DNA from: Coriobacteriales bacterium
Lineage (GTDB): Bacteria; Actinomycetota; Coriobacteriia; Coriobacteriales; Atopobiaceae
DNA length: 44,839 nt
Assembly (NCBI GenBank): GCA_029101205.1
Contig: JAQXQO010000035.1
Location: 1 to 44,839 of the forward strand
Reading direction: 5' to 3'
Shown here in pieces: positions 10,084-16,581 of the stretch; position 1 is the stretch's first letter, and the number at the start of each line of letters is the position of its first letter. Under the pieces are notes generated by a model that ran no database searches, had not been told where the DNA came from, and worked only from the letters and a program-made list of their open reading frames with translations. A program made the position numbers and the translations under genes.

Positions 10084-12855
10084 CTACTTGGTGGCAACCT
10101 TTGCGGGACCACCGTTGGAGTTGATCTTTGCCTGGGCACCCGCGAGGCGTGCGATGGGCACGCGGTAGGGCGAGCAGGACACGTAGTCCAGGCCAAGGTC
10201 GTAGTACATCTGGATGGAGTCGGGGTCGCCGCCGGTCTCACCGCAGACGCCGCAGACGATGGTCGGGTTGGCCTTGTGGCCGCCTTCGACGCCCATCTTG
10301 ACCAGCTTTGCGACGCCGGAGTCCAGGGTCTCGAAGGGGTTGGTCTTCAGGATCTTCTTGGCCAGGTACTGCGGGATGAACGCAGACTCGACGTCGTCAC
10401 GCGAGAAGCCGAAGGTGGTCTGCGTGAGGTCGTTCGTGCCGAAGCTGAAGAAGTCGGCGTACTTGCCGATCTCGTCGGCGGTCACGGCAGCGCGCGGCAG
10501 CTCGATCATGCAGCCCACGGGGATGTTCAGCTCGACGCCCTCGGCCTCGGAGACGGCCTTGACGCCCTTCTCGATCTGCTCGCGGACAAGCTTCAGCTCC
10601 TCGACCGTGGAGATCAGGGGAACCATGATCTCAGGCCTGGGGTCGTAGCCCTGCTTCTTCAGCGTGGCGGCAGCGCCGGCGATGGCACGAACCTGCATGT
10701 CGTTGAGCTCGGGGTACACGATGCCCAGACGGCAGCCGCGCAAGCCCAGCATGGGGTTGGCCTCCTGGAAGGAGTCCAGGCGGGCCAGGCGCTCGCGCAT
10801 GGCCTTCAGCTGGGTCTCGTTCTCACCGCGGCCCTCGGCGCGCGCGATCTCGACGGCCAGCTCGCGCGGGTCGTCCAGGAACTCGTGCAGAGGGGGATCC
10901 AGCAGACGGACGATGACGGTCTTGCCGTCCATGGCCTTGAACATGCCCTCGAAGTCGCCGGTCTGAGCCTTCAGCAGCTGACCCAGGGCCTGCTGCTTCT
11001 GGCCGTCGGTGTCGGCGAGGATGAACGACTGGATGATCTGCTTGCGGTCGCCCAGGAACATGTGCTCGGTACGATCCAGGCCGATGCCCTCGGCGCCGAA
11101 GTCGACGGACAGCTGAGCGTCGGCGGGGTAGTCGGCGTACGTGCGCACGCCGAAGAGGCGGCCACGAGAGGCGTCGTGACGGACGTTGTCTGCCCAGGTG
11201 AGGATTGTCTCCAGGTCGCCGGTCAGCTCGGGGCGCACCAGGGGCACAGCGCCCAGGATGACGTCGCCGGTCGTGCCGTTGATCGAGATGATGTCACCCT
11301 CGTGCAGCACGATGTCGGTGCCCGAGACGGTGACCTCCTTGGCCTTTGCGTCGATCTTCAGGGCCTCGGCGCCGCAGACGCAGGGGGCGCCCATGCCACG
11401 GGCGATGACGGCCGCGTGGGAGGTCTTTCCACCATGGGACGTCAGGATGCCCTCGGCGGCGACCATGCCCTTCAGGTCGTCAGGAGTGGTCTCCCAGCGC
11501 ACCAGGATGCAGGGCTTCTCGATGTTCTTGTAGTGGACGGCTGCGTCCGAGGAGAACACGACGGCACCCACGGCGGCACCGGGGCTGGCGTTCATGCCCT
11601 TGGCGATGACGTCGAACTTCGCCTTCGGGTCGAACTGCGGGTGCAGCAGCTGGTCCAGCTGCTCGGGAGCAACGCGCATGATGGCCTGCTCCTTGGTGAT
11701 GCGGCCCTCGTCTACCATCTGCATGGCGACGCGCAGGGCGGACAGGGCGGTGCGCTTGCCCACGCGGGTCTGCAGCATCCACAGCTTGCCGTTCTCGATG
11801 GTGAACTCCAGGTCCATCATGTCCGCGTAGTGGTCCTCGAGGATCTCGAACACGTGGAAGAGCTCCTTGCCAGCCTCCTCCAGGCCCGGGGTCTTCAGCA
11901 GGTCGGCGATGGGCTCGGTGTTGCGGATGCCGGCCACGACGTCCTCGCCCTGGGCGTTGACCAGGAAGTCGCCGTAGCGCTCGTTGGTGCCGTCAGCGGG
12001 GTTGCGCGTGAAGGCGACGCCGGTGGCGGAGGTGTTGCCCTTGTTGCCGAAGACCATGACCTGCACGTTCACAGCGGTGCCCAGGTCGTCGGGAATCTTG
12101 TTCTGCTTGCGGTACAGGATGGCGCGCGGGGTGTTCCAGGAGCCGAACACGGCCTGCTCGGCCAGACGCAGCTGCAGGTAGGGGTCCTGCGGGAAGGAAG
12201 CCTTGCCGTCGGGAGCGACCTCGGGGTGAGCCTGCGAGTCGACGTTCTTCGCGAAGATGTCCTTGAAGGTGGCGGTGAGCTCCTTGAGGTCCTCGGCGTC
12301 GAGCTCGGTGTCCAGCTTTACGCCCTTCTGCTCCTTCTTCTCGTTGATGGCGTCCTCGAACAGCTGGCCGTCAACGCCCATGACGACGTTGGAGAACATC
12401 TGCACGAAGCGGCGGTAGGAGTCCCAGGCAAAGCGGGGGTTCTGCGTCTGCTTGGCCAGGCCCTCGACGGACTTGTCGTTCAGGCCCAGGTTCAGGACGG
12501 TGTCCATCATGCCGGGCATCGAGAAGGGAGCGCCGGAGCGGACGGAGACCAGCAGAGGATCGTCGGGATCGCCGATCTTCTTGCCCATGCGCTTCTCGAG
12601 GTCCTTGCGGTAGACGTCGATCTCGTCCAGGACGCCCTCAGGCCACACGTTGCCTGCGCTCGAGTACGCAACGCAGGTCTGGCTGGTGATTGAGAATCCC
12701 GGAGGGACGGGCAGGCCGATGTTGGCCATCTCGGCAAGGTTTGCGCCCTTGCCGCCCGTGATCCACTTTGCCTCGTCGACGGTGGCACCGGCAACCTCGG
12801 TTACGTTGTTGCCGTTCTCGTCCTTTCCAAAGCGGTAGACATGCTTTTCAGCCAT
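10084..12855 (-). CDS. ppdK: Pyruvate, phosphate dikinase
   Basis: KHVYRFGKDENGNNVTEVAGATVDEAKWITGGKGANLAEMANIGLPVPPGFSI; catalytic GGKTSHAAVIARGMGAPCVCG; C-terminal FFSFGTNDLTQTTFGFSRDD. Confidence 0.97.
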   Translation of the reverse strand: MAEKHVYRFGKDENGNNVTEVAGATVDEAKWITGGKGANLAEMANIGLPVPPGFSITSQTCVAYSSAGNVWPEGVLDEIDVYRKDLEKRMGKKIGDPDDPLLVSVRSGAPFSMPGMMDTVLNLGLNDKSVEGLAKQTQNPRFAWDSYRRFVQMFSNVVMGVDGQLFEDAINEKKEQKGVKLDTELDAEDLKELTATFKDIFAKNVDSQAHPEVAPDGKASFPQDPYLQLRLAEQAVFGSWNTPRAILYRKQNKIPDDLGTAVNVQVMVFGNKGNTSATGVAFTRNPADGTNERYGDFLVNAQGEDVVAGIRNTEPIADLLKTPGLEEAGKELFHVFEILEDHYADMMDLEFTIENGKLWMLQTRVGKRTALSALRVAMQMVDEGRITKEQAIMRVAPEQLDQLLHPQFDPKAKFDVIAKGMNASPGAAVGAVVFSSDAAVHYKNIEKPCILVRWETTPDDLKGMVAAEGILTSHGGKTSHAAVIARGMGAPCVCGAEALKIDAKAKEVTVSGTDIVLHEGDIISINGTTGDVILGAVPLVRPELTGDLETILTWADNVRHDASRGRLFGVRTYADYPADAQLSVDFGAEGIGLDRTEHMFLGDRKQIIQSFILADTDGQKQQALGQLLKAQTGDFEGMFKAMDGKTVIVRLLDPPLHEFLDDPRELAVEIARAEGRGENETQLKAMRERLARLDSFQEANPMLGLRGCRLGIVYPELNDMQVRAIAGAAATLKKQGYDPRPEIMVPLISTVEELKLVREQIEKGVKAVSEAEGVELNIPVGCMIELPRAAVTADEIGKYADFFSFGTNDLTQTTFGFSRDDVESAFIPQYLAKKILKTNPFETLDSGVAKLVKMGVEGGHKANPTIVCGVCGETGGDPDSIQMYYDLGLDYVSCSPYRVPIARLAGAQAKINSNGGPAKVATK

Positions 12856-13049: not shown

Positions 13050-13083
13050 CAAATAAAGGGGAGGTCGCTAAACCTCCCCTTTT
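13050..13083 (-). terminator. Rho-independent terminator after the short PDRP-like gene
   Basis: Reverse strand AAAGGGGAGGTTTAGCGACCTCCCCTTTATTT. Confidence 0.8.
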
Positions 13084-13112: not shown

Positions 13113-13514
13113 TTACTGCTGCTCCAGCTGGTCCCTGTAGGCGCCAATCTTGTTGCTGGGCTCGGTGCCCGTCAGCGTGGACAGCACGGTGATGGCAGGG
13201 CCCAGAAGGTCGATGGACGGGATGCCCATCGCGTCGAGCTCGTGACGCACGTCACGCCGCAGGTTCTTGTCGGAGAAGGTGTGGAACACGGCCATGGGCC
13301 TGTCATTGTCCACGTGCGAGCTGAGGAACTCCTTCACCTTGTCGAGGCTGTCGGCGTTCGACAGGCGAACGATCTCGATTGCGTCGTCGGGGAACTGGGC
13401 GGCCGCGGCACGGACGACCACGTACGCCGTCTCGCCACGAGCGTCAGAAATCACAAAGACGAGCGGCTTGACGTCCTCAACTAGATTGTCGGTACTCAGA
13501 TCGAGAGTTGCCAT
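13113..13514 (-). CDS. Short protein matching only the N-terminal half of the PPDK/PEP synthase regulatory protein (kinase-pyrophosphorylase, PF03618-type)
   Basis: VFVISDARGETAYVVVRAAAAQFPDDAIEIVRLSNADSLDKVKEFLSSH...FHTFSDKNLRRDVRHELDAMGIPSIDLLGPAITVLSTLTGTEPSNKIGAYRDQLEQQ*; 133 aa; AGGAG before ATG; sits just upstream of ppdK. Confidence 0.8.
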   Translation of the reverse strand: MATLDLSTDNLVEDVKPLVFVISDARGETAYVVVRAAAAQFPDDAIEIVRLSNADSLDKVKEFLSSHVDNDRPMAVFHTFSDKNLRRDVRHELDAMGIPSIDLLGPAITVLSTLTGTEPSNKIGAYRDQLEQQ

Positions 13515-13577
13515 CACTTCTCCTCTCACCCACGCGCGTCCGCTCCCATCGCGGCGAGCCCAGGTTTGCCTATGACG

Positions 13578-15671
13578 TTACTTTCGTGACAGAACCGCGA
13601 AGTCGGCGACGCCCGCAAACACGTCAGCGAACTTGTTCAGCAGGCGCAGACGGTTCTCCCGCACCTTAGTATCGTCATCCATCACCAACACGTCATCAAA
13701 GAAGTGGTCGATTGGTTCCCTCAGGTCGGCGAGAGCGCTGCAGGCTGCAGAATATTCGCCATCCTGCAGTGCCTGGGCCACCTTCTGCTGCCCCTGGACG
13801 CAGGCCTGCAGCAGCGCGCGCTCGGCGTCGCCCAGCATGGACTCGTCCACGTTGGAGCCCAGCTTTGCGTCGCCCAGGTGCGCGGCGCGCGCGTAGGCGG
13901 TGGCCAGGTCGTCAAACAGCTCGGGCTCGTTGGCGCGGGCGTCCTCGAGGGCATGCGCGCGTGCCAGGAACTCGTCGGGGTCCACGACGCCCACGGCCGA
14001 TACGGCCTCAATGGTGTCAGGCGAGATCTTCTCGTCCTTGGCGATGGTGGCCAGTCGGCCCAAGAAGAACTTGCGGACCGCAGCCGACACCTCTGCCGCA
14101 TCGAAGTCCAGCCCCTGCCTGGCGTAGGCGTCCAGAGAGGCGCCGATGAGCGCACCCAGCGACACCTGCGGCAGCGTGCGCAGCATGGCGATGACGCCGA
14201 TGGCGGAGCGACGCACGGCGAAGGGGTCGGAGGATCCGGTGGGCGGCTCGTCGATGGCGAACATGCCGCAGATGGTGTCCAGCTTGTCGGCGATGGCCAC
14301 GGCCTTGCCCACGGTGTTGGAGGGCAGCTCGTCGCCTGCGAAGCGCGGACGGTAGTGCTCGCGGATGGCGTCGCACACCTCCTGGGGCTCGCCGGCGGCC
14401 TTGGCGTAGTAGCCGCCCATGACGCCCTGCTGGTTCGTGAACTCGACGACGGCCTGGCTGACCAGGTCGGCCTTGGCCAGGTGAGCGGCCCTTTGGGCCA
14501 GCTGCACGTCGGCGTCGGAGCCGCCGGCCTCGCGCATGACCTCGGGAGCCAGCTCCTCCATGCGCGCGACCTTCTGGCGCATGGTGCCCAGCTTCTCCTG
14601 GAACGTGACCTGCGACAGGCGCTCGACGAAGTCGTCCATGGGGACCTTCAGGTCCTCCTCGTAGAAGAACTTCGCGTCGTCCAGCCTGGCGCGCACGACA
14701 CGCTCGTTGCCGTCGACCACGGTGGCCGAGTAGGCGGGGTCGGCGTTGGACACGACCACGAACTCGCGGGTCAGCTGTCCCTGGGCGTCATATATAGGGA
14801 AGTAGCGCTGGTTCGACAGCATGGACTCGCAGATGATCTCGTGCGGGACGTCCAGGAACTCCTCGTCGAAAGAACCCACCAGCACCGTGGGCCACTCGCA
14901 CAGGTTCACGACCTCGTCGAAGGTACGCTTGGGCGTGTCCACGTGGGCGCCGCCGCGCTCCTGCTCCACCTGGGCGATCTGCTGACGGATGATCTGGGCC
15001 CTGCGGCCCGCGTCCAGCACGTGGGCCTCCTCCAGCACACGCTCGTAGTCGGCGGGGCTGGGACCCACGTGGTCGCCCGGGGACAGCACGCGGTGGCCGC
15101 GCGTGGTGTTGGACGAGGTGACGTCGGCGTAGTGCACGTCTACGACGTCGGAGCCCAGAAGCGCACAGATCCAGCGAATGGGACGCACGAACGACTCGTG
15201 CTCGGAGCCCCAGCGCTGGCTGCGGTAGTTGGGCCACTGGATGTTCGCGATGACGTCATGCGACAGCGTGGACAGTATGGGCATGGCGGGCTTGGACGGC
15301 ACGCTGCGCTCGGCAAACACGTACACGCGCCCGTCGGTGTCCTGGCGCTTGGCCAGCTGCGAGGCGTCGATGCCGAACTTGCGGGCGAAGCCCATGGCGG
15401 CGCGCGTGGGCTTGCCGTCGGCGTCGAAGGCTATGTTGGCCGCGGGGCCGCGCTTGACCTCGTGTATCTCCTCGGTGGCGCAGGCCACGTCGGACACGAT
15501 GGCCGCCAGGCGCCGGGGGCTGGACACGACGCGCACGGCGCCGTGCGACAGGCCGGCCTCGTCCAGGGCGGACGACACCAGCTTGGGCAGCTGCTTGCAG
15601 GCGTTCATCAACGGTGCGGAGGGCATCTCCTCGGTGCCTATCTCCAAAAGGAAGTCCTTGGTCTGGGCCAT
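13578..15671 (-). CDS. glyS: Glycine--tRNA ligase beta subunit
   Basis: MAQTKDFLLEIGTEEMPSAPLMNACKQLPKLV..., full-length beta subunit adjacent to glyQ. Confidence 0.96.
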   Translation of the reverse strand: MAQTKDFLLEIGTEEMPSAPLMNACKQLPKLVSSALDEAGLSHGAVRVVSSPRRLAAIVSDVACATEEIHEVKRGPAANIAFDADGKPTRAAMGFARKFGIDASQLAKRQDTDGRVYVFAERSVPSKPAMPILSTLSHDVIANIQWPNYRSQRWGSEHESFVRPIRWICALLGSDVVDVHYADVTSSNTTRGHRVLSPGDHVGPSPADYERVLEEAHVLDAGRRAQIIRQQIAQVEQERGGAHVDTPKRTFDEVVNLCEWPTVLVGSFDEEFLDVPHEIICESMLSNQRYFPIYDAQGQLTREFVVVSNADPAYSATVVDGNERVVRARLDDAKFFYEEDLKVPMDDFVERLSQVTFQEKLGTMRQKVARMEELAPEVMREAGGSDADVQLAQRAAHLAKADLVSQAVVEFTNQQGVMGGYYAKAAGEPQEVCDAIREHYRPRFAGDELPSNTVGKAVAIADKLDTICGMFAIDEPPTGSSDPFAVRRSAIGVIAMLRTLPQVSLGALIGASLDAYARQGLDFDAAEVSAAVRKFFLGRLATIAKDEKISPDTIEAVSAVGVVDPDEFLARAHALEDARANEPELFDDLATAYARAAHLGDAKLGSNVDESMLGDAERALLQACVQGQQKVAQALQDGEYSAACSALADLREPIDHFFDDVLVMDDDTKVRENRLRLLNKFADVFAGVADFAVLSRK

Positions 15672-15672
15672 C

Positions 15673-16581
15673 CTAGGCCACCTCCCCCTTCTGCTGCTTT
15701 TCGTTCTTGGAAGCGACCTCGGCAAGGTAGGACTCGCAGCACAGCTTTGCTATGGTGCGCACGCGCAGGATGTAGTTCGCGCGCTCCGTGGCGCTGATGG
15801 CGCCGCGGCTGTCCAGCAGGTTGAACGCGTGGCTGCACTTCATGACGCAGTCGTACGCGGGCAGCGGCAGTTTGCGGTCCAGGCAGCGGTGGCACTCGGC
15901 CTCGTAGTCGTCGAACTTCTGCCGCATCATCGGCACGTCTGCGACCTCGAAGTTGTAGGCCGAGAACTCGCGCTCGTTCTCCAGGAACACGTCGCCGTAG
16001 GTCATGGGCGTACCGTCGGGCAGGTAGCTCCAGACGATGTCGTAGACGGAGTTCTTTCCCTGCGCGTACATGGCTATGCGCTCCAGGCCGTAGGTGATCT
16101 CGACAGGCACGGGGTCAACCTCGATGCCGCCCACCTGCTGGAAGTAGGTGAACTGCGTGACCTCCATGCCGTCCATCCAGACCTCCCAGCCGAGTCCCCA
16201 GGCGCCCAGGGTCGGGCTCTCCCAGTCGTCCTCGACGAAGCGCACGTCGTGCTTTGCGGGGTCCAGGCCGATGGCGGCCAACGAGCCCAGGTACAGGTCC
16301 TGCGAGTCCACCGGCGAGGGCTTTATGAGCACCTGGAACTGGTAGTAGTGCTGCATGCGGTTGGGGTTCTCGCCATAGCGGCCGTCGGCGGGACGGCGGC
16401 ACGGTTGCGGGTAGCACGTGCGCCAGGCGTCGGGACCCAGCGACCGCAGCAGCGTGGCGGTGTGGAACGTGCCCGCGCCCACCTCGCTGTCGTAGGGCTG
16501 CATAACCGTGCACCCCTTGTCGGCCCAGTAGTGCTCGAGCGCCAGGATCATGTCCTGGAAGGTAAGAGGCTGTTCGCTCAT
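15673..16581 (-). CDS. glyQ: Glycine--tRNA ligase alpha subunit
   Basis: [48 protein letters not shown]. Confidence 0.97.

Follow-up and report, generated by a model that had tools for sequence, protein, structure and literature searches.

A PPDK regulatory protein (PDRP) reduced to its N-terminal domain is the norm in Atopobiaceae, being neither an assembly accident nor peculiar to the organism analysed here. The half-length gene lies in the slot beside ppdK and is under purifying selection. PDRP is the textbook case of a single protein catalysing both the addition and the removal of one phosphate, and a regulatory role of its N-domain has so far only been proposed. The short forms represent a natural domain-deletion experiment, with the catalytic half gone and the N-domain under strong selection next to PPDK. 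We found no prior report of such a clade-wide, kinase-free, N-domain-only variant beside PPDK, and no literature on truncated PDRPs. We suggest that the short protein is a non-catalytic, nucleotide-sensing partner of PPDK, tuning the enzyme non-covalently, which is the best explanation at hand and to which we give about an even chance of being correct.

The window is the whole stretch of DNA analysed, 44,839 nucleotides of a Coriobacteriales bacterium (GCA_029101205.1, contig JAQXQO010000035.1). The locus contains the following features:

15673-16581, minus strand: glyQ, glycyl-tRNA synthetase alpha, a conserved upstream neighbour by synteny
13578-15671, minus strand: glyS, glycyl-tRNA synthetase beta, a conserved upstream neighbour by synteny at short and full-length loci, 63 nt from the short PDRP
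13520-13524, minus strand: Shine-Dalgarno AGGAG just 5' of the short-PDRP ATG, read from the sequence
13113-13514, minus strand: short PDRP (N-terminal domain only), 133 aa, an ORF with a Pfam PF03618 match
13055-13082, minus strand: 12-bp terminator-like hairpin with a U-rich tail (-20.1 kcal/mol, z -3.6)
10084-12855, minus strand: ppdK, pyruvate phosphate dikinase, 923 aa, with PPDK_N, PEP-utilizers and PEP-utilizers_C domains and the motif GGKTSHAAV

The short ORF has 133 codons, with an ATG start and a TAA stop at 13113-13115, and the protein ends in GTEPSNKIGAYRDQLEQQ. Its match with PF03618 is significant (E 7.5e-19, 68.8 bits against a cut-off of 23.5), covering only positions 1-108 of the 256 of the profile. 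The NCBIfam model PRK05339 / NF003742 was matched along its first ~115 of 270 positions with 67.9 bits, far under the cut-off of 225 expected for a full-length protein, and the PpsR model gave 20.9 bits. Aligned by hhalign with the N-terminal half of full-length relatives, the short form has a probability of 100 and 50% identity. The hairpin (13082-13055) starts 30 nt past the stop; it is not among the calls of a consensus terminator scanner, probably owing to the T-run rule of that program. Only 257 nt separate the short gene from the start of ppdK at 12855, so the C-terminal half cannot fit between them, this stretch being shorter than that half and rich in stops.

The 133-aa protein is predicted to have the PDRP N-domain fold. 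Its AlphaFold2 model (pLDDT 88.6) has 5d0n as top PDB match in Foldseek (probability 1.00, E 8.7e-4, with a modest TMq of 0.57), and profile comparison with this maize PDRP gave an E-value of 1.9e-8. A full-length relative used as control also has 5d0n as first match (E 2.6e-21), with a TM of only 0.40. TAL-effector and armadillo matches of the A1 profile were discarded as artefacts, since only 5d0n has a stretch that is significant by itself. The title of the 5d0n entry is 'maize PDRP bound with AMP', and the AMP is reportedly located at the N-domain loop in the 2016 paper on the structure. According to a review, the N- and C-domains of maize PDRP have the same fold, with P-loops in both, a single active site in the C-domain performs both reactions, and an allosteric role has been proposed for the N-domain (PMC9138534). 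Internal homology between the two domains was not detected by hhalign, so that the common fold rests on the literature.

No C-terminal half was found in the ORF, in the intergenic region or in the rest of the window's genome (83.8% complete), whose single PF03618 match is the 133-aa gene. A frameshift or a lost stop was rejected, as the C-domain sequence is missing altogether and not displaced to another frame; a separate gene for the C-domain was also rejected, none being found genome-wide. The original prediction had described a PDRP cut to its N-terminal half beside ppdK, without its catalytic half, not due to a frameshift and followed by a terminator hairpin about 30 nt past the stop, and all of this agrees with our results. 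Several of the checks it named gave answers as well: search and alignment against PF03618 and full-length PDRPs returned the N-domain only, structure prediction returned the N-domain fold, and a survey of relatives revealed that the truncation is not unique to this assembly.

In the window's genus, all 3 sampled genomes have the half-length form only, including two congeners 96 and 99% complete. In the family, a PF03618 match was found in 131 of 140 genomes: 15 contain a PDRP of full length (profile about 1-256) and about 116 have only the half-length form (profile about 1-110). The C-domain alignment search was positive in all 15 full-length genomes, which served as control, with no match in the other 125 Atopobiaceae genomes. 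Restricting the count to the 101 genomes with a completeness of 90% or more and no more than 5% contamination, PF03618 was found in 99, the C-domain in 11 and PPDK in 99. In the glyQ-glyS-PDRP-ppdK slot, 67 fetched loci have short forms, with a length of 123-135 aa conserved across more than 20 genera, in isolates and MAGs from several projects. A further collection yielded named relatives in Olsenella, Thermophilibacter, Tractidigestivibacter, Parafannyhessea, Olegusella and Atopobium, along with Atopobiaceae MAGs; all belong to Atopobiaceae, and isolates and type strains are among them. The short gene remains after glyS where ppdK is found elsewhere, in L045-L047 (genus g15) and L041 (g10). 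Two loci have an apparently interrupted ppdK, consisting of two overlapping pieces in genome G133 (L109) and containing an internal TGA in G008 (L035), which could be sequencing errors.

Full-length PDRPs (278-304 aa) occur in 15 fetched Atopobiaceae loci, adjoining ppdK in 12 of them. The two loci of genus g28 (L124 and L126) are peculiar, with a full-length protein containing GLSGSAKTP as catalytic P-loop instead of GVSRTSKTP and ppdK elsewhere; this PDRP possibly has an altered activity or target. In other families of the order, a full-length PDRP follows glyS in 17 of 17 fetched loci, with ppdK directly next in 14. A survey covering 399 genomes from the order and 397 from the phylum placed half-length PDRPs, among the matches listed, in Atopobiaceae alone. 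Apparent half-length PDRPs in the order outside this family (G385, G389, G391) and a very short match in G082 are all at contig ends and were discarded.

The concatenated GlyQ, GlyS and PPDK tree agrees with a full-length ancestor. In this tree, the short g9 group is placed with the full-length genera g11, g14 and g16 with support 100, and therefore at least two truncations are favoured, although AU tests are compatible with one, since a single short-form clade was not rejected (p 0.16 in the concatenated tree; p 0.50 in the N-domain tree). The GlyS-only tree was poorly resolved.

In the rest of the order, loss of PDRP mostly went together with loss of PPDK. From 17 sampled genomes of the order devoid of PDRP, 14 are also devoid of PPDK. 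Joint absence is observed in near-complete genomes of family f3 (G143-G146, G168, G176-G178, G188, G190, G193, G197, G207 and G208). PPDK without a detected PDRP was found in G173, G142 and G032.

Nineteen further N-domain-only genes were fetched from Atopobiaceae, away from the ppdK slot, and the ppdK-slot short clade is separate from these paralogues in the tree. In group 2 (L064, L082, L083, L087, L104, L105, L108, L111, L128, L130 and L132), the paralogue comes directly after a glycyl-radical-enzyme activase gene on the same strand in 11 of 11 loci, with a divergent PflD-type glycyl radical enzyme, an Fsa (fructose-6-phosphate-aldolase)-like protein in most loci and a DeoR regulator often nearby. 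This arrangement resembles an operon for breakdown of 1,5-anhydroglucitol-6-phosphate or 1,5-anhydromannitol-6-phosphate, on which YbiW/PflD reactions have been described (PMC12441222). In group 3 (L042, L050, L058, L060 and L068), four of the five paralogues follow a DeoC-type aldolase, and several loci have a divergent GntR-UTRA regulator. An apparent fusion in L060 (a 424-aa open frame) was rejected, its upstream part being the DeoC gene read in the wrong frame. For the remaining genes (L053, L055 and L110), an alpha/beta hydrolase adjoins L053 and a SpoVK-like AAA protein is near L110. The location of paralogues in operons unrelated to PPDK shows the N-domain in use as a separate module and supports its autonomy; its ligand or partner is perhaps not PPDK-specific. 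We tentatively consider that it may have given rise in Atopobiaceae to a new family of kinase-free metabolite or nucleotide sensors acting on different enzymes of anaerobic carbon metabolism, namely PPDK, the glycyl-radical-enzyme activase and the DeoC-type aldolase, a possibility less likely than the role proposed for the ppdK-slot protein.

Those same operons with an activase, a glycyl radical enzyme and Fsa, or with DeoC, would fit a short protein that is a stand-alone ligand-sensing domain with a target other than PPDK (for instance a different enzyme of metabolism, a transcription factor or glycyl-tRNA synthetase), adjacent to ppdK merely by inheritance from an ancestor with the full-length protein. 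The short gene lies close behind glyS with the hairpin between it and ppdK, and in L041 and L045-L047 ppdK is now found elsewhere, as would be expected for such a domain. However, the ppdK-slot clade is distinct from the paralogues, the short gene is kept together with PPDK in nearly all good genomes of the family, and the two are co-lost elsewhere in the order. We regard this alternative as rather unlikely, while recognizing that the moved ppdK, the PPDK without PDRP in G032 and the paralogues in PPDK-unrelated operons do count against a PPDK partner.

The short gene retains the N-domain motifs SDxxGxTA, AVFHT and IPSIDLLGP, which in the window are at:

13425-13448, minus strand: SDARGETA loop (residues 23-30), corresponding to the P-loop-like loop in the N-domain of PDRP; S23, D24, G27 and T29 are invariant in 67 short forms
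13278-13292, minus strand: AVFHT motif (residues 75-79), identical in all 67 short forms of the ppdK slot
13197-13223, minus strand: IPSIDLLGP motif, residues 98-106; D102, G105 and P106 are invariant in short forms

A37, Q40, R86, R90, L114, P119 and G124 are also invariant in short forms, and many of the invariant positions are conserved in the full-length N-domain too. Diversity is lower in the short set than among the full-length proteins used for comparison, and the higher conservation of the short set per se was given little weight. In the loop, Arg26 is present in 57 of 67 short forms against none of 32 full-length proteins, which have mostly Leu, Val, Met or Ile there, while Lys28 is found in 19 of 67 short forms. 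Arg26 is a clade-specific gain of the short forms. These substitutions, and the partial similarity of SDARGKT/SDARGET to the end of a P-loop, would be expected if the N-domain were itself a catalyst, performing phosphotransfer on PPDK without the C-domain. But the loop does not have the first Gly and usually not the Lys of Walker A, and the C-domain, where the review puts the sole active site (PMC9138534), is missing, making this an improbable explanation. The original prediction had placed the P-loop of the family in the C-terminal half, which holds for the sole active site; the N-domain, however, also has a P-loop (PMC9138534), and the short protein keeps SDARGET.

A split PDRP, in which an unlinked kinase subunit from a different family complements the short protein in trans, would explain why the Thr site of PPDK is intact. 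Nevertheless, GGKTSHAAV is identical at short and full-length PDRP loci, so the Thr adjoining the catalytic His is uninformative on regulation and does not have the significance first attributed to it; besides, a C-domain homologue occurs in short-form genomes only alongside a full-length PDRP. We consider a split system even less probable than catalysis by the N-domain.

Comparisons within 15 close pairs gave dN/dS values of 0.02-0.24 for the short gene, against 0.007-0.054 for the N-domain of full-length PDRPs (three pairs), which indicates that constraint acts on the short gene, though perhaps a little less strictly. A decaying pseudogene or an assembly/frameshift artefact, suggested by the short length relative to the PF03618 family, is therefore discarded almost entirely, considering this purifying selection, the conserved length in isolates and MAGs from more than 20 genera and the absence of convincing C-domain remnants at short loci, and 'remnant', the term used originally, is inadequate for a conserved gene that is the norm in the family.

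The strong selection on the loop and motifs of the N-domain, together with the adjacency to ppdK, leads us to prefer a ligand-dependent, non-catalytic partner of PPDK. The kinase/pyrophosphorylase domain would have been lost in the ancestor of most Atopobiaceae, with the N-domain kept as an independent gene. Its product would dock on PPDK, and its SDxRGxT loop would bind a nucleotide, for which AMP comes first to mind, since PPDK uses or produces it and the crystal entry of maize PDRP names it as ligand in its title. PPDK activity would then be tuned non-covalently and without phosphorylation of the Thr beside the catalytic His. The PDRP kinase/pyrophosphorylase activity is not expected, since the known active site sits in the missing half, in agreement with what had been anticipated for this protein, and covalent on/off switching of PPDK by it is very unlikely judging from its sequence. 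If this explanation is correct, the control of the pyruvate/PEP node would have switched from covalent to non-covalent in these gut and oral anaerobes, and the 'kinase/pyrophosphorylase' annotation would be wrong for the short genes. Should binding of PPDK and a nucleotide be true, the 133-aa protein would offer a system to settle the function of the PDRP N-domain.

Among known systems, the full-length PDRPs of other Atopobiaceae and Coriobacteriales occupy the orthologous glyS-ppdK slot with ~50% N-domain identity, differing by their 278-304 aa and a complete kinase half, of which the short form has none. The N-domain is also homologous to that of the PEP synthetase regulatory protein of E. 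coli (PSRP/PpsR), which is full-length, bifunctional and acts on PEP synthetase (PMC2817694), whereas the short PDRP is half-length and beside PPDK. From the traits of PDRP/PSRP, the N-domain fold and a PPDK with the Thr are found here, and the C-domain with GVSRTxKTP is not. Compared with PDRP itself (PF03618, DUF299; maize 5D0N/5D1F), the short protein has no C-domain and hence neither the GVSRTxKTP P-loop nor the kinase/pyrophosphorylase active site, but it is alike in N-domain sequence, predicted fold and genomic link to ppdK, and has an extra Arg in the N-domain loop.
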